64,000 nt of DNA from Odiellus spinosus (taxonomy: Eukaryota; Arthropoda; Arachnida; Opiliones; Phalangiidae): NCBI GenBank assembly GCA_963920705.1, contig OY987230.1, positions 11,557,320 through 11,621,319 of the forward strand. The letters run 5' to 3'. Both the position numbers and the translations under genes were made by a program. Positions 13,070 through 64,000 of the stretch are shown here, piece by piece (position 1 is the first letter of the stretch; each line of letters begins with the position of its first letter). The notes below the pieces were generated by a model. The model saw only the letters and a program-made list of their open reading frames with translations. It did not search any database and was not told the origin of the DNA.

Positions 13070-13813
13070 TTCACAACGGTCTACCCCCATTTCGCCCAAT
13101 TTATTTTCGCCCAATTTCATTTCGCCCAATTCCCATTTCGCCCAGTTTCTTTTCGCTCAATTTCATTTCGCCCAATTCCCATTTCGCCCAATTTCTTTTC
13201 GCCCAAATCCCAATTCGCCCAACCCCATTTGGCCCAATTTCTTTTCGCCCAATTTCTTTTCGCCCAATTCCCGTTGGCCCAATTCCCATTTGGCCCAATT
13301 CCCATTTGGCCTAATGTCTTCTCGCCCAATCTCGTTTCGCCCAATTTTGATTTGGGCCAATCTCATTTTGCCCAAGTCACATTTTTCCACTTTTCCCCCC
13401 CAACCTAACCTAACCTAACCTAACCTAACCTAACCCTACCTAACCTAACCTAAATTAAATAAAAGTCAGTTTTTTGGCCTACTAAGACTTTAAATTTTAA
13501 AAGGTTTAAGCTTTAATCGTTTTAGGCGAAAAGGGAAGAGAAATTTTTGGGTTGGGAGAAATGGGAATAGATAATTCTAGGCTAACTGATAAAACGATTG
13601 GGCAAATTGGAATTGGGCGAATTGAGAAAAGGAATTTTTAGTTTGGGCAAAATGGGAAGAGATAATTTAGGGCCAAATGATAAAGCGATTGGGCAAAATA
13701 GGATTGGGCGAAATGAGAATAGATAATTTTGGGCAAAAAATGCCTTGGGCGAAATGGGAATAGATCATTTTGGGCGAAATATTTTGGGCGAAATGGGTAC
13801 ATACCTTCACAAC
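13070..13813. mobile_element. 728-bp foldback transposon with telomere-repeat core
   Basis: An exact 8-bp direct repeat TTCACAAC (13070-13077 and 13806-13813) flanks an element whose ends are GGTCTACCCCCATTTCGCCC and, complemented from the right, GGTATGTACCCATTTCGCCC. The left arm is a degenerate tandem of CCCAATTTCTTTTCG-type units of about 16-17 bp. The right arm is the inverted version (TTGGGCGAAATGGGAATAGA). The centre holds the (CCTAA)n tract. No transposase ORF. Open frames through the left arm are by-products of the short repeat. The 8-bp duplication is compatible with hAT-type or other 8-bp superfamilies. Confidence 0.8.
13402..13454. repeat. Interstitial (CCTAA)n telomere-type repeat
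   Basis: About ten consecutive CCTAA units with one CCCTA variant, i.e. TTAGG on the minus strand, the telomere unit of many arthropods. It lies at the centre of the foldback element, so it is not a chromosome end. Confidence 0.95.
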
Positions 13814-30879: not shown

Positions 30880-31120
30880 GAAATACGTTTAAGGTTTATT
30901 TATATTCGCAAAATATGGTTTAGGGTTTATTGTTATTGACAAAATATGATTTAGGGTTAATTGTTATTCACAAAATATGGTTAGGGTTAATTATTATTCA
31001 CAAAATATGGTTAGGGTTAATTGTTATTCACAAAATATGTTTAGGCTTAGTTGTTATTCACAAAATATGGTTTAGGGTTAATTGTTATTCACAAAATATG
31101 GTTTAGAGTTGAATATAATT
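30880..31120. repeat. Minisatellite, 30-34 bp unit with TTAGGGTTAA
   Basis: About seven copies of GGTTAATTGTTATTCACAAA plus ATATGGTTTAG. Unit length varies between copies because of one to three T insertions. The TTTAGGG word recalls plant-type telomere repeats but occurs once per unit and is not a telomere array. Confidence 0.85.
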
Positions 31121-33697: not shown

Positions 33698-34330
33698 AGA
33701 CTGTCCTCATTTTTTAGATTACCTATGGCTATAATTTTTTTTTTTTTTTTTTTTTTTTTGCTAAATTTCTAGGAAATTTCTAGTTTCTTCTGGATACGAC
33801 TGTACAATAAATTTTACACTTTTTAAAGGGAGAATGCAACCTAACAACATGTGATTTTTTTATGGACTCCTTATGGCCTAATATAACAGAAAAAAAATAC
33901 GAACAATTATTAAACTAGAAAATAAATTAAATCTTACCAGGAAAAATAGGCGTAGCTGAATTCATGGAGATTCTCAATTTTACATATAAGGACTCGACCA
34001 ATGACATTGATCGATGGATTTTATATGAAGAATGTATAATCTCCATGAATCCAGATGGTAAGATTTAAATTTATTTCTAGTTTTATATTTTTTCTTAATT
34101 TTTTTACTGTTAGATTAGGCCTATTTAAACAATAAGGATTCGATAAAAAAATCTCTGGTTAGGTTGCATTCTCCCTTTAAAGAAACTTCAAAATTAAAAT
34201 CCCAAAAATATATTTTTTGCGATATATGACGTAGTTTTGTTATTAGTTTTGTCACGTGAAAAACGGTCGAAGTGGCTTTTTGTGACATATTCCATGAACA
34301 TATAGGTTTGGGTGAAAATAAATTTATACT
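33698..34330 (+). mobile_element. Family B element split by a family A insertion
   Basis: GTTAAAGTGAGACTGTCCTC starts the left part. After the family A copy the sequence resumes with AGAAACTTCAAAATTAAAAT and ATATGACGTAGTTTTG. In the intact copy at 20705 this joint reads CTTCTTAAGAAACTTC, i.e. the TTAA used as target. Confidence 0.75.
33833..34180. mobile_element. Family A foldback MITE, copy 6 (nested)
   Basis: TTAAAGGGAGAATGCAACCT to GGTTGCATTCTCCCTTTAA with TTAA duplicated on each side, inserted into a family B element. Arms include TAGCTGAATTCATGGAGATT and ATCTCCATGAATCCAG. Confidence 0.93.
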
Positions 34331-34591
34331 TCTCCTTTAATTCCCCAAGTTCTTAAGCAAGTTATTACCCATCTTATGGCTGTTTTATATAGGAGCTCTC
34401 ATCTCGTAAAAGTCCTGTCTAAACATTCTGTGGCCCCTTCCTTGCTAACACACGTTCCAGCCCTGAGTCTAAGAGGGCCTTTAAAACAAGCAGCCTCTCG
34501 TCAAAATCCTCTATTTACTTTCTCCTAACATTAATCTTCCAAATCTTGCTATGCATGGAAGATCTTATATTTTTAAAGAGATAGTGAACTG

Positions 34592-34650
34592 ATGAAAGGA
34601 GACAGTTAACTAATGAAGGGAGACAGTTAACTAATGAAGGGAGACATTTT
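34592..34650. repeat. 21-bp tandem repeat
   Basis: GGAGACAGTTAACTAATGAAG is repeated nearly three times. A related TATAGTGAAATGATGAAAG block recurs about 150 bp downstream together with a shared ATCTTGCRATGCAT context, so the surrounding 150 bp are also duplicated. Confidence 0.8.
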
Positions 34651-35439
34651 TGGGAAAGAAATTTTAAATCCTCTATTTACGTTCTCTTATCATTAATTTT
34701 CTTAATCTTGCGATGCATATTGAATCTCACATATTTAAAGATATAGTGAAATGATGAAAGAAGTCAGTTTTGAAAATAAATAGTTCCTTAATTATATAAA
34801 ATACGAATTAAATATTTTCTTGATGAATATTTTTTTCGGCTCTTACGTCATTAGGTTTTAATGTCTGAGGGTCCTTTGGCGGACTTCTTGCCCATTTCGC
34901 GCGTCAAGCGAGCGATACCTAATAAGCCAGATGTACACAGACCTATTTTCACGCGTTTCACGCTCGCACGAGCCCATTGACTTATATGCGCGCTAACGTC
35001 AAATGCGTGAAAATTAGGTCTTTGTGCATCCTACACACAGACGTCGCTAATGTATTATGCATGTGCGCATGCGCAGATCGAGCATGGGAAGGCGCGTTGA
35101 CGATCTCCCCAATTTTGAAAGTCAAGAGCAGCGCGCTAATCAAATTTTTCTCAAAATGTAGATAGGCTTAGCAAGCTCAAATATTAACAAGACGCTTTTT
35201 GATGGGTTTTAATAAGGTTTTTACGCTTATATTACCGCTCTTAATCGGTTAAATTAAGAATAACTTTTGACTCGTCTTCAGTATCCCTTTATATTGAGAT
35301 TTGATGGGTTGTATGCTTCTACTTTAATAAATGTAGGCAAGTAGCGGTATAAATGAGATGGACACGGAGCTTAGAAATTTTCTACGCATTCAGCGAGCTA
35401 TAGGCCTATATATAGGGATCACAAAAATATAGCTCGAGA

Positions 35440-35850
35440 TGGGCAGTTGGCTATAGCTGGAGTTTAATAGCGCGCCGTCGGCTAATTCTTGGGAAGTTGG
35501 GCCAACCTCGTGCTGCCTTAGATCCTTATACCATTGGGCAGCTTTCGGTTAGCGTTAGCAAGAGCGACGAAATTCTTCTCACGTCATGGTGCGTGATCCG
35601 GAATTACCCGGTTGTGTGTATAGTAATATAAGTATACCACTGACCGCGCTGTGCGCCTCTCTTTGCACCAGCACGCGGCTTTCTCGGTTAGGGCCAAAGG
35701 GGCTAACGTTCGTCTGCCCAATCTAATCCCTTTTCCTACTCCGCGGCTCAAATAATTGATTGAGTTCCACGCTTCCACCGAACAAAATCCCCTGGCATAC
35801 CGCGTGCCTTTTTGCGTTTCTTCCTACTTAAAGCCACCGACTGCGAAGTG
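35440..35850. other. GC-richer unique block
   Basis: Higher G+C than its flanks (GCGCGCCGTCGGCTAATTC, CACTGACCGCGCTGTGCGCC). It contains TATAGTAATATAAGTATA near 35620, which could act as a TATA region. The minus-strand 64-codon frame at 35584-35778 has no recognised domain. Could be a promoter or a decayed exon; nothing decides. Confidence 0.25.
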
Positions 35851-37344
35851 ATCATGTTCAATTTTGACAAAGTGATTGCCAAGAACCATGCAGTGAGAGA
35901 AGATTTCTACGGTTATAATATTCTATAACTAAAATTGGCTTGGCCCTATGAGGAGAACATCTCCTTTGGTGGGGAAATGTATGAAACGTATTGAAAATGT
36001 TGTAAAAACCATTCCACCTTGAAGCTCAGCGCGCGCTTCACTCCCAAGAAAATAATTTAATAATTTTTACGCGCCCATTAAACCTCTCTCTCTTCCGGAA
36101 CTATTTTCGGTGTTGTTATTCAGAGACTTTGACGTGTTTGTCACGCGAGAATATACGCTTATAAACTTCTGATTCGGAAAGCACGGACTAATTATCGAAG
36201 TGCATTGAGTTAGGAAGCCCAGCTTGATTGCTTGAAACAAGTGATTTAGATAGTTCTTGATGAACATTGTTCTCTAGTTTTAACATTGATAGTACATGCT
36301 CACATTCATACTTCACTCCAAAAGAGAGATCTAATGTACTCCTGGTCCTAATATAATATTTTGGGCTTGTTATTGTTAGATCGGGGGTGGGCGGATAGAC
36401 CAGCTGACTATCTAAACATTCCTTGATCCTATCGAATATTTTGGACTGGTGATCTTTCAGCAGAGAGTTTAATTATGATCAGATCACTCTTCAGTCTGGC
36501 AAGATATTTCATCGAAATTTATCATGATTACTCGCGCAGCTCTTATCCCTATACTGTTCCGAGTATTTGTTTCTACTATTCTTTTCCGCGCTTTCTCTCG
36601 TGACGTGTCGTTCCCCGAGGTACTAATCGACAAAACAACAGACACTAAACGATAGGGAAAAATATCAATTTAGCTTGGCGAGTTGCGAGGCAAAAACGAT
36701 GTCCCAAACGTCCTATTAGATAAATATTTTCGGGACATCAGTTTTTTTTTTTTTTATTTTTATTTTTTTGGTTTGGTGGGTTTTGGCTTTCGTGTTGTGG
36801 TATAATGACGCTTTAATATCGTAATGATCCGTTAAACGAGAGTTCTTTCGTTGATGACGAGAAGGCTGAGAGAGCTGGAAGTCTAAATATTTGGCGTTAT
36901 CGAAGATTTCCAAAAACACTTGGTTTTATTTGACCAAAAAATAAAAAATCAACTTCAATTTACAGTGTTATTTAAAAGCCAAACATTCAGCTTTAGGTGC
37001 AGGTCAAAAGAATACCGTGATATCAAGAACGAATTGAAGCTACTAAGAACGTTAGCGCGTACTGAACGCGTCTGCTTCTTTATTGACCCAGCCTTACCTT
37101 AGATTGACGGAGGAGCTGATCTAAGTTGGCCATGGTGAGACAGGTCCATTGAAAGTCGCCTACGAGTTAGCCTCCCATATATATGTACCAAATATAAAAC
37201 AAATGTAGATAAAACATTATTATAAATATGCAGACTACATTAACGATGAAATGTAATAGAGGAAGACGTTGCGCTGACTGAAGTAAGTCTACTAAAAGGT
37301 TCTTATGGGCTTGAATTCGTTCTTGGTGATTTAAAATATATAAT

Positions 37345-37490
37345 TCTCTAGCTACGTCTGTCTGTCTGTTTGTGGGGAACGATAAAATGTATACGCAAAG
37401 CTAGAGGCGCTATGACTCAAGTCGCGCGCTTTATTTCAAACGTCGATTAAGCCCTGAGCCTAATTTAATTATAATGTTTTGAAGATGAGA
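37345..37490 (-). repeat. Dispersed repeat with GACAGACAGACA end, copy 3
   Basis: Reads on the plus strand as CTACGTCTGTCTGTCTG, GTGGGGAACGATAAAATGTA, ACGCAAAGCTAGAGGCGCTA, TTTCAAACGTCGATTAAGCC: the inverted form of copies 1 and 2. Confidence 0.65.
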
Positions 37491-37739
37491 ATTAGAGAAA
37501 TTCACCAATTTTTATATATTACGGATATGATTATGCCACATGACACATGACGGCTTTTTAATTTTAACAAGTTATTTGACGGGTATTAGATAGTATCAAA
37601 AGTCTATTACTTTATTACATAAAAGTAAACAACGCCTCGTAGCTTAATGCTATCAGCAAAGGGCCACAGGTAGACGTACTAGCCCATCACTTAAACCCTT
37701 TCTGGCTCAAGTGGTTTGGACTCTTCCTCGATATTTAGA

Positions 37740-38162
37740 GTCGGCAGGGCTCGTACACAACCTGGAATACCTGGAAAACCTGGAAAAGTCAGGGAAATAG
37801 AAAATAGGTCCAAAAGGACAGGGAAAAGTCAGGGAAATATATTTTTTGGGTGAAAGTCAGGGAAAACGGTGATGATTTGTAGGAATTGCAAAGTCTGTAA
37901 TATTTTTAGCTGAAATTTTTTATACGGAATTCTTTTTTCTCTCAACACTTTTCAATTTAACGCGCAATTTCTTTTTCTACTAGGCTTAGTGATCCCCATC
38001 ATTTTAGTTCATTCCCACCTTGTGCCAAATCATATAATAGAGAGTGTTTGTTGAAAATATTACAATAATAAGAAGGTCCGGGAATTTATTGAAAAATGGT
38101 CAGGGAAAACCTGGAAAAGTCAGGGAAATTCAATTCGAAAATTTTGTACGAACTCTGGTCGG
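37740..38162. mobile_element. 413-bp CAGGGYTCGTAC element
   Basis: Ends CAGGGCTCGTACACAA and TTTTGTACGAACTCTG form inverted repeats, flanked by the direct repeat GTCGG (37740-37744, 38158-38162). The interior is a run of CCTGGAAAACCTGGAAAAGT and CAGGGAAA words near both ends. Only 5 bp of duplication are visible, shorter than hAT. The plus-strand frame at 38044-38292 starts inside the element and leaves it, and is not a gene. Confidence 0.75.
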
Positions 38163-39307
38163 GAAAGAGTGGCGAAATTTAGGCGGGGCGCGCTCGGCTA
38201 TATTGTCTTCCCTTCCAACTGAGAAATTTCGCCAAAGAGTGGCGCTTCGGATTTCCCTATTTACAGCGACTGCGACCGCTAGAGTGTCTTGAATCAGAAT
38301 CTGCCGGTACATTTACTTGGACCTTTGCTGACAGTATTAAGTGGAATAATGTGATAGACTGTTGTTAGTATTTAATAATTATATTGAAAAACGGCAATTT
38401 AAATTATCAATTCTCTCTTCTTTCGTAAAGCGGAAAAAAATATATATTTTATCAAAGATTGCGGAGGCGGAAAAAGCAAAGTTTGGGAATGTTTTTATTT
38501 TTTTGTCGCGGTGAGATTCCGCAAGCTGCGACCAATTCTTTCTCTCTTCGCTTCTCGTCGCGGCTTTGAAAATTCCCTTCAATTTATTCTTTTGTTTTTG
38601 GGGCTTTCGAAACCGACATATATTATTCCTTCCGGCAACACGTCCTTTCTATATTGATTCTTCTAGATCTTTCTCTTCCAAATATCTTTTGTTGGCTTTC
38701 AATGCCCGCTTTATTACATCCACATACGAGAATCTATAAGCATACATACGCTGTACAGGTAGAGATTTCAGCCAATATAAAAATTCCAATAGCTTTTTAA
38801 ATAAAACCCCTTTCTAAGATATAGGTATATACCTTACAATACAAGAATATCAAGACTGCCCAAAATAAATCACCTTTGTTGGTGTGCCGCTCATTTCTTT
38901 ATTTCTCCTTGTTTAGGCTTAAGATTGATTCATTTAAGTGGAAAGTAAAAGATTTTATGTTTGGGAAGAATATTAGATGTCATTGAAACTCGTCTCTTAA
39001 CCTAATTGGGTTAAATACTTCCGTGACAATTTCACAAAAACACCGTGATCTTTATTAACCTCTCACTTCCCCCTCAGAGGCTAGCTTTTATAATGGCCTA
39101 ATGTATTTAAAGGATCATATTATCTTAATCTATTCGTTCGGTTCAATGCTTTTTGTCACTCAAATTTACTTAAGATAATTGCTCGAATAATTACACTGTA
39201 AATGGTTTGCCTATCTACGGAATGAGTCATGGACATTCTTTGACCTCCAGACCGAGACCCACTATCTTCCAAGGGTATTTTTAGCCTTAAAATATTATTT
39301 TGTATTC
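38163..39307. other. Non-coding DNA
   Basis: Begins with a CpG-richer 160 bp holding an inverted pair GGCGAAATTT (38172) and AAATTTCGCC (38223). No gene is supported in the remainder. Confidence 0.35.
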
Positions 39308-39602: not shown

Positions 39603-40968
39603 TCAACTGTCTTCAGAAATTGATTTTAGGATTGTTTGTAAATTGTAAGCAAAAAAACTGCTACTTGCATATTTAGATATTAGGTAATTAAATAGGATTC
39701 GAAACATTTAAAAGCTTTATCTATACACACGTTTCTCGTACAAAACGTACAACCTCACATAGGAAAATTTAAATTTCTCAGAACTCGAGTAAAATAAAAG
39801 TAAAATAATTCAAATTTACAATTCTAAACAAAACAAAAATTAATGTTTTGTTATAAAACTATAGCGAGACTGTTTTCTGTTTTTGAAATTTTGGAGAGGG
39901 GATATCCCAGTAATCTTAGAAAAGGAATTCCTTTGGGGAAGTCGGACGCTTTAGTTTAGGGCGTTTATATGACGCCATTGAATATATACCTCGTAGTGGG
40001 AACTAATTTCAGTTTGCAGCACGTACAAATTTAGAATATACTTCTAACTCCACTTGTAACAAAAACAACGCGGAGCAAGGGAGTCTTTCATTATTTCTAC
40101 TGACAACTCAAACCTATTTTGACAACCTTATAAAGGTTATTAATTCTAATTCAAAACCGTTTTTTTCTAGAAGGGTTTTAGTTCTTTCCAAGCTTGTAAC
40201 CGAGTAATATATAAGAGATACTAAGATAGAGCTCCTTTTCGAGTTATTCGGGCAGCGGATTTATGTTCTGGAAAAACAAAACTCCAAACCCGTCTGGAAT
40301 AGGTGTCTAGACCGCCTACAATGCCATGCATCTTTCGTCTCTAATTCACCTAAAGATTGCAGCGTATACAATGTTAGAAATCTTTCTTTATCTCTAAGGA
40401 ACTTAATCTAGGAGATAGATCAAACCTACAAGTTTGCACGTACTGCAAACTTATTGTTAAAATAAATTATAGTCCGGATCTATAAAACCTTTCATATCGT
40501 GGTATAAATGTGTCAGAATGATTTGGCACGACGTTGGTGTCTTGGTCCGTCCAGAATTTAATTTAGGTGTAAATTATATTAGTCTTGTTTTCATAATGTT
40601 AATTAAAGCAGCTTTAAAGTGAGAATGTAACGAGAAAGTAGGCTTAACAAGGATCCATGGAAAGTTTTAAATTTCAACTCCGACTAAATAGCAAAAACGC
40701 GCGCTTCTCAAGATAAATTTGAAACGTTTTAATTGATTCGTTAACCACGAGATACCAAACTCACCATGGATTCTTGTTAATTAAGACTCTCCTGAGTTAA
40801 AAATGGATTTCTATATAACTTGTGTTCAAGAGGAGTTGACAAAATTATATAAGCTTATGCCAATTAATTATTACTCAAAATATCATAAAGAAAATATTGT
40901 TATTTTTCTGTTTTGATGAGTTGAAACTACGGTATCCGTATTTAAAATTTTAATGTGAGAAAGTAAAT

Positions 40969-41228
40969 CTGAATTTTCCCAGCTGGTGTGATGAACTAAA
41001 TTGAATTTTCCCAGCTGGTGTGATGAACTAAATTGAATTTTCCCAGCTGGTGTGATGAACTAAATTGAATTTTCCCAGCTGGTGTGATGAACTATATTGA
41101 ATTTTCCCAGCTGGTGTGATGAACTAAATTGAATTTTCTCTGCTTAGTGATGAACTAAATATAATTTTCTCTGCTGGTGTGATAAAATAGATCTGAATTT
41201 TTTTCTGCTTAGTGATAAACTAAATACG
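40969..41228. repeat. 32-bp minisatellite, eight copies
   Basis: GAATTTTCCCAGCTGGTGTG plus ATGAACTAAATT starts at 40971, 41003, 41035, 41067 and 41099 with almost no change. It is followed by three diverged units in which CCCAGCTGG becomes CTCTGCTTAG. The CAGCTG E-box core recurs every 32 bp in the first five. Confidence 0.9.
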
Positions 41229-55894: not shown

Positions 55895-55978
55895 TGCCAG
55901 AAGTGAGGTTCGAACTCACGCCCTCTTTCGAGGATCAGAGCTTAAATCTGACGCCTTAGACCACTCGGCCATCCTGGC
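55895..55978 (-). tRNA. tRNA-Leu, anticodon UAA
   Basis: The 84-nt gene folds as a class II tRNA. The acceptor GCCAGGA pairs with TTCTGGC (one G-U), with discriminator A. The D arm is GCC-GAGTGGTCTAA-GGC. The anticodon stem TCAGA/TCTGA encloses TTTAAGC, giving anticodon TAA. A long variable arm (TCCTCGAAAGAGGGC region) is followed by T arm GTGAG-TTCGAAC-CTCAC. Internal Pol III boxes are intact (TGGCCGAGTGG and GTTCGAACCTC), there is no intron, and CCA is not encoded, as in eukaryotes. It decodes UUA leucine codons. It stands alone, with no other tRNA in the window, and looks functional. Confidence 0.95.
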
Positions 55979-57118: not shown

Positions 57119-57390
57119 CTCAATTATCAACTAATTTTAATCCTAATTATCAACCAATTTTAATCCCAATTATCAACTAATTTTAATCTCAATTATCAAC
57201 TAATTTTAATCTCAATTATCAACTAATAATAGACTCAACTATTAATTTTAATCTCAATTATCAACGAATTTTAAAATTAATTATCAACGAATTTTAAAAT
57301 CAATTATCAACGAATTTTAAAATCAATAATCAACGAATTTTAAAATCAATTATCAACGAATTTTAAAATCAATTATCAATGAAGTTAAAA
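57119..57390. repeat. 23-bp minisatellite, about twelve copies
   Basis: AATTATCAACTAATTTTAAT + CTC units change midway to AATTATCAACGAATTTTAAA + ATC units, giving two homogenised blocks. Extremely AT-rich. Confidence 0.9.
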
Positions 57391-58372
57391 TCAAATTTTT
57401 ACTGTTGCGGTAATTATTTCTATGACATATGTATATATTTTTTGAATTGTTTTTAACGATATTTCTGAATATGTTACTCTATTTCCATTTTGAGTTCATG
57501 GAAAATCTTTAACAGCCTCAATTTAACATGAATATGTATGAAATCATCATGCAAAATCACTGATTTCATTCTCCCTTTAAAAATTTAAAGTTACTGATAC
57601 GTTTTTCGTTATTATATGCAAAATAATTTAGTATATAATGAATTAGGATAAACACGTTCGTGTTTATCCCTTTATCTAAACTCGAATTTCATCAGAAACC
57701 GTAATGTCTTTTCCAATGGACCCGCGGCGCTTGATAACTGAAATCGTCGTCGTCGTCGTTTCCCTCTTCCCACCGTCCACTGAATTCGAATTAATACAGA
57801 CAAAGGTACTTTTGAAAAAATTTGATAAGACTTCGTTCGGGTACAAGAGTATCTCTAGTTAAACACAGATTTCAATAATGAAATGTTGATTAAGTATATG
57901 AAGTAATAGAAAGTAAGGTGCCTGAATGGGTAACAAAAGGGTGAGATCTTAAGCTTAGCCGAGCTTTACTAATTGCTTCAAAATGATAAACAAAATTTTA
58001 TTTCTTAAACAGTAGAATGATAATGAATATCCATAGAATTCGAGTTAATAGAGAGACAGATGGCTGTATGGGTGATGAAAAGGGTAAAACATATAACTAG
58101 CCGAGCTTTATTAATTGGCTTTAAATTGATAAACAAAAATTGATTTTATTAAACAGTTGATAAGCTTTTTTTATCGTTAACGGAAAATTGCATTTATTGG
58201 GTTCTTTTACTAGGGTAGCCCTCTTCAGCCGTCTAATTTTGACTATTATGTCATATCATGAGTATCCCATGATATTCACCCTAATTCACCGTAATTAAAA
58301 AATCATTTGATTTTTTAACTTTAATAATACATCTCTTCTCGGCCTATATAAACGAGATTAGCAGATTCAGTA
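57391..58372. other. Non-coding DNA before the macrosatellite
   Basis: Family B end near 57503 (AACAGCCTCAATTTAA), an isolated family A end at 57565 and a (GTC)5 run at 57746. At 57716 a plus-strand ATG opens 53 codons starting MDPRRLITEIVVVVSLF across the GTC run. I see no supporting evidence for a gene. A 90-bp duplication (CCGAGCTTTACTAATTG, CCGAGCTTTATTAATTG) lies at about 57958-58140. Confidence 0.4.
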
Positions 58373-58840
58373 CTCAAAGATGCACCGTCTTTGATTGTTT
58401 AGGCAATCGTTTCTCACCTATATTTCGGTGATAAGAGACCTATTTCTCACGATCTTTTGGGTAGAGTACTCGAATAAAGCGAGGCGACTGAATGTAAATC
58501 GCATTACCTAGAAATGTGGCCCATTTAATATATTAAGTCACTGTAAAAACATTTCACAATGAGAGTTCTAGGGATTAAATATCACTTGAGTTGGACTTCA
58601 TATCCTGCCAAGTGCTCGATTACACATGAAATTTATAGTTTAACGTTCTCAATCTCTACTTTATTTTTTAAAATACTTGAGTTTTGCGACTAGGATGTGC
58701 TTTAGATCCAATAGCTTCGTCATTACTACTGCGTAATAATGTTGCTATTAAGTAGTTGGCCAATTATTGAAGTCTGTATCTAAAGCACGTCTAACTTAAG
58801 TATAATAAAAAATAAAGATTTAGAATGTTAAATAGGATAT
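58373..58840. repeat. Macrosatellite spacer, copy 1 (468 bp)
   Basis: Starts ACTCAAAGATGCACCGT and joins directly to CTTTGATTGTTTAGGC, lacking 67 bp present in the other spacers. The rest matches spacers 2 and 3 with a handful of substitutions, down to AATGTTAAATAGGATAT at the array junction. Its left edge is the boundary of the whole macrosatellite. Confidence 0.93.
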
Positions 58841-60005
58841 ACACTTGAAACCAACGACACTTGAAACAAACGACACTTGAAACCAACGGCACTTGAGACA
58901 AACGACACTTGAAACAAACGACACTTGAAACAAACGACACTTGAAACCAACGACAGTTGAAACAAACGACACTTGAAACAAACGACACTTGAAACCTACG
59001 ACACTTGAAACCAACGACACTTGAAACAAACGACACTTGAAACCAACGACACTTGAAACCAACGACACTTGAAACCAACGACACTTGAAACAAACGACAC
59101 TTGAAACCAACGACACTTGAAACCAACGCCGTTGAAACCAACGACACTTGAAACCAACGACACTTGAAACCAACGACACTTGAAACCAACGACACTTGAA
59201 ACCAACGACACTTGAAACCAACGACACTTGAAACCAACGACACTTGAAACCAACGACACTTGAAACCAACGACACTTGAAACCAACGACACTTTAAACCA
59301 ACGACACTTGAAACCAACGACACTTGAAACCAACGACACTTGAAACCAACGACACTTGAAACAAACGACACTTGAAACAAACGACACTTGAAACCAACGA
59401 CAGTTGAAACAAACGACTCTTGAAACCAACGACACTAGAAACAAACGACACTTGAAACCAACGACACTTGAAACAAACGACACATGAAACAAACGACATT
59501 TGAAACCAACGACACTTGAAACCAACGACACTTGAAACAAACGATTCTTGAAACCAACGACACTTGAAACCAACGACACTTGAAACCAACGACACTTGAA
59601 ACCAACGACACTTGAAACCAACGACACTTGAAACCAACGACACTTGAAACCAACGACACTTGAAACCAACGACACTTGAAACCAACGACACTTGAAACCA
59701 ACGACACTTGAAACCAACGACACTAGAAACCAACGACACTTGAAACCAACGACACTTGAAACCAACGACACTTGAAACCAACGACACTTGAAACCAACGA
59801 CACTTGAAACTAACGACACTTGAAACAAACGACACTTGAAACCAACGACACTTGAGACCAACGACACTTGAGACAAACGACACTTGAAACAAACGACACT
59901 TGAAACCAACGACAGTTGAAACAAACGACACTTGAAACAAACGACACTTGAAACCTACGACACTTGAAACCAACGACACTTGAAACCAACGACACTTGAA
60001 ACAAA
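58841..60005. repeat. 16-bp minisatellite array 1 (about 73 units)
   Basis: Unit ACACTTGAAACCAACG, with recurrent variants at the C-C-A positions (CAAACG, CCTACG, CTAACG) and rare ones such as ACAGTTGAAAC, ACACTAGAAAC and GATTCTTG. One unit has lost bases (CCAACGCCGTTGAAACC near 59127), shifting phase. The minus strand is open in all frames with the 16-residue repeat VSLVSSVVGFKCRWFQ. ORFs of up to 377 codons here are by-products. Confidence 0.97.
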
Positions 60006-60540
60006 CTCACAGATGCACCGTACCAATGGGTGGTTTACGTTAGCTTTTAAAATTGTGGCGAACCCTCTCGTTTGTGCAATGGTGACGTCTTTGATTGTTT
60101 AGGCAATCGTTTCTCACCTATATTTCGGTGATAAGAGACCTATTTCTCACGATCTTTTGGGTAGAGTACTCGAATAAAGCGAGGCGATTGAATGTAAATC
60201 GCATTACCTAGAAATGTGGCCAATTTAATATATTAAGTCACTGTAAAAACATTTCACAATGAGAGTTCTAGGGATTAAATATCACTTGAGTTGGACTTCA
60301 TATCCTGCCAAGTGCTCGATTACACATGAAATTTATAGTTTAACGTTTTCAATCTCTACTTTATTTTTTAAAATACTTGAGTTTTGCGACTAGGATGTGC
60401 TTTAGATCCAATAGCTTCGTCATTACTACTACGTAATAATGTTGCTATTAAGTAGTTGGCCAATTATTGAAGTCTGTATCTAAAGTACGTCTAACTTAAG
60501 TATAATAAAAAATAAAGATTTAGAATGTTAAATAGGATAT
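60006..60540. repeat. Macrosatellite spacer, copy 2 (535 bp)
   Basis: CTCACAGATGCACCGTACCA to TTAAATAGGATAT. Contains a hairpin GATTG-TTTAGG-CAATC, a second TCTCACC...GGTGATAAGAGA stem, CCAAT-like TTGGCCAA and several AATAAA words. No ORF of note. Confidence 0.95.
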
Positions 60541-63066
60541 ACACTTGAAACCAACGACACTTGAAACCAACGACACTTGAAACCAACGGCACTTGAGACA
60601 AACGACACTTGAAACAAACGACACTTGAAACAAACGACACTTGAAACAAACGACACTTGAAACCAACGACACTTGAAACCAACGACACTTGAAACCAACG
60701 ACACTTGAAACCAACGACACTTGAAACCAACGACACTTGAAACCAACGACACTTGAAACCAACGACACTTGAAACCAACGACACTTGAAACCAACGACAC
60801 TTGAAACCAACGACACTTGAAACAAACGACACTTGAAACAAACGACACTTGAAACAAACGACACTTGAAACAAACGACACTTGAAACAAACGACACTTGA
60901 AACCAACGACACTTGAAACCAACGACACTTGAAACCAACGACACTTGAAACAAACGACACTTGAAACCTACGACACTTGAAACCAACGACACTTGAAACC
61001 AACGACACTTGAAACCAACGACACTTGAAACCAACGACACTTGAAACCAACGACACTTGAAACCAACGACACTTGAAACCAACGACACTTGAAACAAACG
61101 ACACTTGAAACCAACGACACTTGAAACCTACGACACTTGAAACCAACGACACTTGAAACCAACGACACTTGAAACCAACGACACTTGAAACCAACGACAC
61201 TTGAAACAAACGACACTTGAAACAAACGACACTTGAAACAAACGACACTTGAAACAAACGACACTTGAAACCAACGACACTTGAAACCAACGACACTTGA
61301 AACCAACGACACTTGAAATCAACGACACTTGAAACCAACGACACTTGAAACCAACGACACTTGAAACCAACGACACTTGAAACCAACGACACTTGAAACC
61401 AACGACACTTGAAACATACGACACTTGAAACAAACGACACTTGAAACAAACGACACTTGAAACAAACGACACTTGAAACAAACGACACTTGAAACCAACG
61501 ACACTTGAAACCAACGACACTTGAAACCAACGACACTTGAAACCAACGACACTTGAAACCAACGACACTTGAAACCAACGACACTTGAAACCAACGACAC
61601 TTGAAACCAACGACACTTGAAACCAACGACACTTGAAACCAACGACACTTGAAACCAACGACACTTGAAACCAACGACACTTGAAACCAACGACACTTGA
61701 AACCAACGACACTTGAAACCAACGACACTAGAAACAAACGACACTTGAAACCAACGACACTTGAAACCAACGACACATGAAACAAACGACATTTGAAACC
61801 AACGACACTTGAAACCAACGACACTTGAAACAAACGATTCTTGAAACCAACGACACTTGAAACCAACGACACTTGAAACCAACGACACTTGAAACCAACG
61901 ACACTTGAAACCAACGACACTTGAAACCAACGACACTTGAAACCAACGACACTTGAAACCAACGACACTTGAAACCAACGACACTAGAAACAAACGACAC
62001 TTGAAACCAACGACACTTGAAACCAACGACACTTGAAACCAACGACACTTGAAACCAACGACACTTGAAACTAACGACACTTGAAACTAACGACACTTGA
62101 AACCAACGACACTTGAGACCAACGACACTTGAGACCAACGACACTTGAAACAAACGACACTTGAAACCAACGACACTTGAAACCAACGACACTTGAAACC
62201 AACGACACTTGAAACCTACGACACTTGAAACCAACGACACTTGAAACCAACGACACTTGAAACCAACGACACTTGAAACCAACGACACTTGAAACAAACG
62301 ACACTTGAAACAAACGACACTTGAAACAAACGACACTTGAAACCAACGACACTTGAAACCAACGACACTTGAAACCAACGACACTAGAAACAAACGACAC
62401 TTGAAACCAACGACACTTGAAACCAACGACACTTGAAACCAACGACACTTGAAACCAACGACACTTGAAACCAACGACACTTGAAACTAACGACACTTGA
62501 AACTAACGACACTTGAAACAAACGACACTTGAAACCTACGACACTTGAAACCAACGACACTTGAAACAAACGACACTTGAAACAAACGACACTTGAAACC
62601 AACGACACTTGAAACCTACGACACTTGAAACCAACGACACTTGAAACCAACGACACTTGAAACCAACGACACTTGAAACCAACGACACTTGAAACCAACG
62701 ACACTTGAAACCAACGACACTTGAAACCAACGACACTTGAAACCAACGACACTTGAAACCAACGACACTTGAAACAAACGACACTTGAAACCAACGACAC
62801 TTGAAACCAACGACACTTGAAACCAACGACACTTGAAACCAACGACACTTGAAACCAACGACACTTGAAACCAACGACACTTGAAACAAACGACACTTGA
62901 AACAAACGACACTTGAAACAAACGACACTTAAAACAAACGACACTTGAAACCAACGACACTTGAAACCAACGACACTTGAAACCAACGACACTTGAAACC
63001 AACGACACTTGAAACCAACGACGCTTGAAACCAACGACACTTGAAACCAACGACACTTGAAACAAA
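60541..63066. repeat. 16-bp minisatellite array 2 (about 158 units)
   Basis: Same 16-bp unit. Runs of the CCAACG variant alternate with short runs of three to five CAAACG units, a pattern repeated along the array. The block ACACTAGAAAC ... ACACATGAAAC ... GACATTTGAAAC ... GATTCTTGAAAC seen in array 1 at about 59433-59545 recurs at about 61728-61850, showing block duplication. Minus-strand frames up to 482 codons. Confidence 0.97.
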
Positions 63067-63601
63067 CTCACAGATGCACCGTACCAATGGGTGGTTTACG
63101 TTAGCTTTTAAAATTGTGGCGAACCCTCTCGTTTGTGCAATGGTGACGTCTTTGATTGTTTAGGCAATCGTTTCTCACCTATATTTCGGTGATAAGAGAC
63201 CTATTTCTCACGATCTTTTGGGTAGAGTACTCGAATAAAGCGAGGCGATTGAATGTAAATCGCATTACCTAGAAATGTGGCCAATTTAATATATTAAGTC
63301 ACTGTAAAAACATTTCATAATGAGAGTTCTAGGGATTAAATATCACTTGAGTTGGACTTCATATCCTGCCAAGTGCTCGATTACACATGAAATTTATAGT
63401 TTAACGTTTTCAATCTCTACTCTATTTCTTAAAATACTTGAGTTTTGCGACTAGGATGTGCTTTAGATCCAATAGCTTCGTCATTACTACTACGTAATAA
63501 TGTTGCTATTAAGTAGTTGGCCAATTATTGAAGTCTGTATCTAAAGCACGTCTAACTTAAGTATAATAAAAAATAAAGATTTAGAATGTTAAATAGGATA
63601 T
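63067..63601. repeat. Macrosatellite spacer, copy 3 (535 bp)
   Basis: Same length as spacer 2 and nearly identical. Visible differences are few, e.g. TTTCATAATGAG for TTTCACAATGAG, CTCTATTTCTTA for CTTTATTTTTTA and AAAGCACG for AAAGTACG. Confidence 0.95.
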
Positions 63602-64000
63602 ACACTTGAAACCAACGACACTTGAAACAAACGACACTTGAAACCAACGGCACTTGAGACAAACGACACTTGAAACAAACGACACTTGAAACAAACGACA
63701 CTTGAAACCAACGACAGTTGAAACAAACGACACTTGAAACCTACGACACTTGAAACCTACGACACTTGAAACCAACGACACTTGAAACAAACGACACTTG
63801 AAACCAACGACACTTGAAACCAACGACACTTGAAACCAACGACACTTGAAACCAACGACACTTGAAACCAACGCCCTTGAAACCAACGACACTTGAAACC
63901 AACGACACTTGAAACCAACGACATTTGAAACCAACGACACTTGAAACCAACGACACTTGAAACCAACGACACTTGAAACCAACGACACTTGAAACCAACG
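63602..64000. repeat. 16-bp minisatellite array 3 (25 or more units, truncated by window)
   Basis: The order of variant units at its start (CCAACG, CAAACG, CCAACGGC, GAGACAAACG, two CAAACG, CCAACGACAGTTG) matches the start of array 1 rather than array 2. It continues past the window edge. Confidence 0.95.

Follow-up and report, generated by a model that had tools for sequence, protein, structure and literature searches.

A 22-kb copy of a dispersed non-coding transposon with six internal minisatellite arrays in Odiellus spinosus

Layout of the repeat locus

This analysis concerns a block of 16-bp repeats near the right edge of a 64,000-bp stretch of the 443-Mb genome of Odiellus spinosus (assembly GCA_963920705.1, contig OY987230.1, here C6, positions 11557320-11621319), which we call the window; positions beyond 64000 are projected from it. 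A preliminary description, made from the letters of the window, had taken the block for a macrosatellite beginning at 58373, in which one 535-bp spacer separated arrays of about 73, 158 and at least 25 units. Once the next 20 kb to the right were added and the element copy L015 was mapped onto the region as reference, the block was found to lie within one unbroken transposon copy that spans 57643-79631 (21,989 bp) and has both ends present; it starts at 57643 rather than 58373, and its end lies outside the window. The order of its parts is the left end, a left module, a truncated first spacer, six arrays with a spacer between each and the next, and a last spacer which continues into the remainder of the element and its right end. 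The six arrays contain 73, 158, 179, 90, 88 and 433 units.

All features of the copy are given on the forward strand. The left terminus with its terminal hairpin occupies 57643-57669; it includes GGATAAACACGTTCGTGTTTATCC at 57646-57669, and the last base of the left flank is A. A subterminal inverted repeat, CTTTATCTAAACTCGAAT, follows at 57670-57687, while its partner is situated some 40-56 bp inside the right terminus, beyond the window. Direct repeats with a period of about 142 bp are found within the left module at 57904-58160, and a TATATAAA motif at 58345-58352 stands immediately upstream of that part of the element which was multiplied together with the arrays; a promoter role for this motif would be a guess. 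The core of the first spacer, corresponding to element positions 981-1437 with a 64-bp deletion (element 917-980), extends from about 58386 to 58842 and is followed by array 1 (58842-60004, or 58838-60007 by unit counting), the second spacer (60005-60541), array 2 (60542-63065, or 60538-63068 by unit counting) and the third spacer (63066-63602), both of these spacers corresponding to element 900-1437. Array 3 begins at about 63602 and continues past the window edge at 64000, while arrays 4-6 with their spacers, and then the element as far as its palindromic right end, lie to the right of the window, up to 79631 (C6:11636950). The insertion flanks read atgaA/TTAGG..GTATAA/Taaat, the slashes marking the borders of the element.

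Much of the preliminary description stood. Tandem Repeats Finder (TRF) places the unit ACACTTGAAACCAACG at 58841-63067, in a single row covering two arrays and the intervening spacer, and at 63602-64000; together with the sequence and our scripts it confirms the arrays of 73 and 158 units and the third array meeting the window edge. Script coding resolved the 1021 units of C6 into 39 types, the commonest being ACGACACTTGAAACCA in the phase of the script (n = 562). Exact unit numbers rest on one assembly, and arrays of such length and identity are far beyond chance. The repeat periods of 1700 and 3061 bp are correct, the spacer cores beginning at 58386, 60086 and 63147, and the near-identity of the spacers extends to all seven spacer cores of C6 (98.5-100% identical). 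The first spacer is incomplete, matching over about 457 bp (58386-58842) and lacking 64 bp present in the others, and its neighbour on the left is not an array but the left part of the transposon. Two other readings of the block were rejected: an RNA gene in the spacer, as Rfam returned no match for 57700-64000 at E ≤ 1, and a protein-coding array, because a period of 16 bp shifts the reading frame from one unit to the next; much of the array sequence is free of stops on the minus strand, yet a protein found no further support.

The dispersed element

The genome-wide search for the spacer that the preliminary description had proposed located it on many contigs. With 401 bp of spacer as query there were 1139 first-look candidates, and the 40 that were scored lie on many contigs with 98-100% identity; 18 of these fall in clusters on C2, C3, C6, C11 and C13 because the query was taken from an array-bearing copy. 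In 20 further loci, fetched at 10 kb and chosen mostly outside the array clusters, the main element copies match at 94-100%; the 16-mer is absent from 17 of them, and arrays are present in three (L011, L012, L016). Where there is no array, the spacer runs straight into element sequence (for example GGATATA/CGAAACGG) and a TATA-containing stretch precedes it. The spacer is an internal segment of this element.

Fifteen listed copies have both ends; of these, 13 measure 2481-2709 bp, L026 measures 3481 bp and the C6 copy 21,989 bp; the list omits L020 (which has the flanks of L010), L028 (rearranged), L019 (no left end) and the array-bearing L011, L012 and L016, the right ends of which lie beyond the fetched stretch. 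The element is dispersed and non-coding, copy L015 having no reading frame longer than 61 residues from stop to stop; on this ground, and for the lack of target duplication in 14 of 15 copies, a long terminal repeat (LTR) or other retroelement was rejected. Its left end, TTAGGATAAACACGTTCGTGTTTATCC, has 493 genome copies when the 27-mer is allowed at most one mismatch, and folds into the terminal hairpin, an equally good folding arising in 1 of 200 shuffles. The subterminal inverted repeats, computed on L015, are 17-18 bp long with one gap, and none of 500 shuffles reaches their score. The right end is a palindrome of about 0.5 kb in all 16 copies examined, with arms of 191-201 bp that are 95.5-100% identical and a loop of 101-117 bp; the arms are perfectly matched in seven of the 16, including the C6 copy. 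The mean difference between arms is 0.9% within copies, while between copies it is 1.2% for left versus right arms, 0.8% for left arms and 1.7% for right arms, the more variable of the two.

Insertion site and class of the element

Insertion occurred between A and T (A at -1, T at +1) in 14 of the 15 two-ended copies, L027 being off or ambiguous at both ends. Copies L014 and L025 provide each other's empty site, because both sit in copies of one host repeat; judged by eye, their flanks join at A^T with no loss or duplication. Precise insertion without target site duplication is a trait of the Helitron superfamily, and in its A^T form it resembles canonical Helitrons, whereas the combination of subterminal repeats with a terminal palindrome resembles the Helitron2/Helentron/HINE group, by the definitions in PMC4067079 and PMC5148889 (for the ends also PMC6544945). 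If the element is read in reverse, its left end becomes CTAA beside T, in agreement with the canonical 3' CTRR and A/T insertion, if that strand is the element's own. Of the Helitron2/Helentron/HINE traits, the subterminal or asymmetric inverted repeats are present, and a palindrome near the 3' end is found at all 16 right ends, far longer than described.

Other features depart from these definitions and count against the assignment. The canonical 5' TC is absent, the ends reading TTAGG or, reversed, TTATAC, and the hairpin, expected about 11 bp from the 3' end, is present but directly adjoins the terminal TAA. Nor do the copies show the preference of Helitron2/Helentron/HINE elements for sites between two T residues or within oligo-T. 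L024 has a stretch of about 27 bp repeated on both flanks, which may be a duplication of a long target or else a tandem repeat of earlier date. No Rep-helicase partner was found: Helitron Rep domains are numerous in the genome (of 184 candidates, 150 were scored), but on C1 and C2, the contigs compared by eye, the left ends among the matches listed have no such domain within 20 kb. Two 3' stretches compared in the search for a partner, L041 and L042, showed no shared end; several kilobases downstream of a Helitron Rep domain, L041 (C82:198700-202200) also carries a tandem repeat that reads KLDIEFE in frame. Because canonical and Helitron2/Helentron/HINE traits co-occur, we label the element Helitron-like with mixed Helitron and HINE features; such membership is rather probable, though not proven.

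Probable common ancestry of the array-bearing copies

With up to two mismatches allowed and other kinds of join left uncounted, the genome contains 14 array-to-spacer junctions on five contigs and 20 spacer-to-array junctions on seven. They group into about nine places on seven contigs: C2, C3 (two), C6, C7, C11 (two), C13 and C14. So few junctions in so few places, and a spacer that belongs to a dispersed transposon, lend no support to the free-standing macrosatellite (centromeric, subtelomeric or of a sex chromosome) that was first proposed. The same junctions bear upon the worry that several loci were collapsed, or one locus duplicated, by the assembly. Near-identical adjacent units are indeed where assemblers err, but the spacer-to-array junctions lie on seven contigs with unlike array lengths and the C6 copy retains both element ends, so that the worry is largely answered and an artefact appears extremely improbable.

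The first spacers of all four array-bearing copies examined (the window, L011, L012 and L016) have the identical 64-bp deletion. The last spacers are identical among C2, C3 and C11, and likewise between C6 and C13; they thus group by their position in the element and not by locus. A single founder that moved after acquiring an array flanked by two spacers would leave such a pattern, and from the shared deletion we consider that an array-carrying founder probably transposed, giving rise to the array-bearing copies. Array-bearing cores differ by 0.8% within loci, 1.0% between loci and 1.9% from copies without arrays (17 and 18 cores).

In evolutionary terms, the explanation that we favour, and regard as very probable, is that the C6 locus goes back to one insertion of a Helitron-like element without coding capacity, the array-bearing founder of which moved to about nine places where the arrays then changed locally. 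An ancestral copy would have gained the 16-bp minisatellite between two copies of an internal segment (element 900-1437), and this founder would then have moved; within each insertion the arrays would have lengthened and shortened by unequal exchange or slippage, and at C6 whole macro-units, each a spacer with an array, would also have been duplicated, so that an element of about 2.6 kb came to measure 22 kb. Of this account, the rolling-circle mobilisation, the succession of steps and the attribution of growth to exchange are inferred.

Several observations sit uneasily with a single founder. In the spacer tree, where supports are modest, C6 is not represented by a single clade: its middle spacers fall beside first spacers from C11 and C14. 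The joins between array and element vary, from the common type at element 900 to 789 in L012 and 1178 in L011. A common unit order at all loci was rejected: runs in common with C6 are clear for C14 and one C3 place (C3b), with six and five rare units where 20 shuffles each gave at most two, and the remaining seven of nine arrays share one or two with C6. With an order clearly shared with C6 in just two of the nine, either the arrays are subject to rapid turnover or their origins are not the same. The usual join lies 27 bp beyond the start of a TATA-like motif; that it reflects a transcript start is speculation.

Local growth at C6

Aligned with the beginning of macro-unit 6, macro-unit 5 shows 1940 identical positions, one mismatch (in 1,941) and one gap of 16 bp, a single unit, and three middle spacers of C6 are identical; growth therefore continued at this locus. 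By script coding, arrays 5 and 6 share a run of 71 unit codes, and ordered cassettes recur within array 6. The recent unequal exchange and spacer homogenisation advanced in the preliminary description are thus supported, three of the seven spacer cores being identical, and the repeat block is one element, of about 2.6 kb in its usual form, that has swollen to 22 kb, apparently not long ago. The first observation was right and the dynamics drawn from it are supported, whereas the class of macrosatellite is not supported.

Tandem and inverted copies of whole elements occur elsewhere. In L039 (C2:26273200-26283199) and L040 (C1:15524600-15530600), complete elements follow one another in head-to-tail orientation at a period of about 2.3-2.4 kb, each next left end joining at varying A^T points within the terminal palindrome of the previous copy. 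L040:2548-6001 contains an inverted dimer: behind one complete element comes a second in reverse, truncated by the end of the stretch, and the two have one terminal palindrome in common, as hairpin-primed replication would give. Head-to-tail joining was rejected as the norm for whole elements, there being only two exact junctions genome-wide (gap 0-8).

These copies raise the question of whether the number of macro-units rose in the course of transposition, through aberrant replication of the rolling-circle or hairpin-primed kind, rather than by exchange after insertion. Models of such kind have been described (PMC12628747), and this alternative is favoured by the joining inside the terminal palindrome, by the single palindrome of the inverted dimer and by arms differing less within copies (0.9%) than left to right between copies (1.2%). 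However, left arms differ between copies no more than arms do within copies, so the co-evolution of arms is weak, and the recurring cassettes inside array 6 need no transposition; we consider this alternative unlikely. A bolder proposal is that the element represents a new rolling-circle branch, with a self-templated, hairpin-primed terminal palindrome, in which replication itself would multiply the internal macro-units and the satellite would be made during transposition. The inverted dimer and the perfect arms of seven copies hint at hairpin priming, and the proposal as a whole is quite doubtful.

Abundance and chromosomal position

A perfect 32-bp dimer of the unit occurs 2914 times genome-wide and 398 times at C6, the first among matches listed in contig order being on C2; scaling from C6 gives a rough estimate of 7,500 units, or about 120 kb. 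Since the C6 locus lies 47% along its contig, it is not the subtelomeric satellite that had been suggested. A true centromeric or pericentromeric macrosatellite that absorbed pieces of transposon, the satellite being the unit of evolution, could account for seven of the nine array-bearing places lying at 0.47-0.56 of their contigs, and for 18 of the 43 left ends listed for C1 falling at 15-17.2 Mb of 35.4. Yet the C6 arrays are bounded by both element ends, the junctions number just 14 and 20, and the dimers scale to roughly 120 kb of 443 Mb. Moreover, two places lie away from the middle of their contigs (C2 at 0.29 and one on C3 at 0.72), and the left ends listed for C2 gather around 24-26 Mb, whereas the array of that contig stands at 10.0 Mb. 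We therefore hold such a macrosatellite to be highly improbable. The enrichment in the middle of chromosomes may simply follow the element, and a centromeric role for the arrays would be an idea that is not needed to explain the locus.

Elsewhere in the window, a tRNA-Leu gene (anticodon TAA) at 55895-55978 on the minus strand is the sole Rfam match at the gathering threshold. No Pfam family matched the six-frame translation of 34001-38998, and 7tm_6 had a single match in the genome. Further minisatellites lie at 13088-13375, 30881-31110, 40955-41225 and 57120-57394, with units of 15, 30-31, 32 and 23 bp, respectively, the last about 250 bp to the left of the element.

Comparison with known systems

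The seeding of a satellite by a transposon is a known route, and the expansion of internal repeats of Helitrons, Helentrons and foldback elements into satellite arrays is already described in PMC7492417, PMC9659126, PMC12628747 and PMC4079207. The C6 case is ordinary in kind and unusually clear in form: side by side in one genome are copies of normal form, others that contain arrays, and the 22-kb copy, which has six of them and still both of its ends. A step that is usually inferred has been caught, and the route from transposon to satellite becomes measurable. It also follows that the inside of a swollen transposon can look like a macrosatellite if only a window is read. In the part of the literature searched, no description was recognised as this element, and the exact strings of the 16-mer were not found, though a printed sequence split by spaces would escape such a search. 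What appears to be new is this element, together with its long terminal palindrome and the compound form of its macro-unit.

The comparisons that follow are by description. The non-autonomous Helentrons of the HINE type, such as Cg_HINE of Crassostrea gigas (PMC7492417), resemble the C6 element in having two non-coding modules, subterminal inverted repeats and a palindromic end, and also in their lack of target duplication, tandem repeats between the modules and dispersed copies. Unlike Cg_HINE, the element here inserts at A^T and not in oligo-T, its palindrome is about 0.5 kb long instead of short, its unit measures 16 bp, and part of a module is duplicated along with the array, forming a compound macro-unit (PMC7492417). 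DINE-1 (PMC4067079) and DINE-TR1 (as cited in PMC9659126 and PMC12628747) of Drosophila are likewise of rolling-circle type, with central tandem repeats that expand in a satellite-like manner, but their target site and ends differ. The foldback element Tetris of Drosophila virilis (PMC4079207) is also non-autonomous, with long inverted repeats and internal tandem repeats that grow to arrays of kilobase size. In contrast, Tetris makes target duplications of 8-10 bp and carries its repeats inside the terminal inverted repeats, whereas the element described here has a single palindromic end and, in the copies examined, no target duplication, L024 being unclear (PMC4079207).

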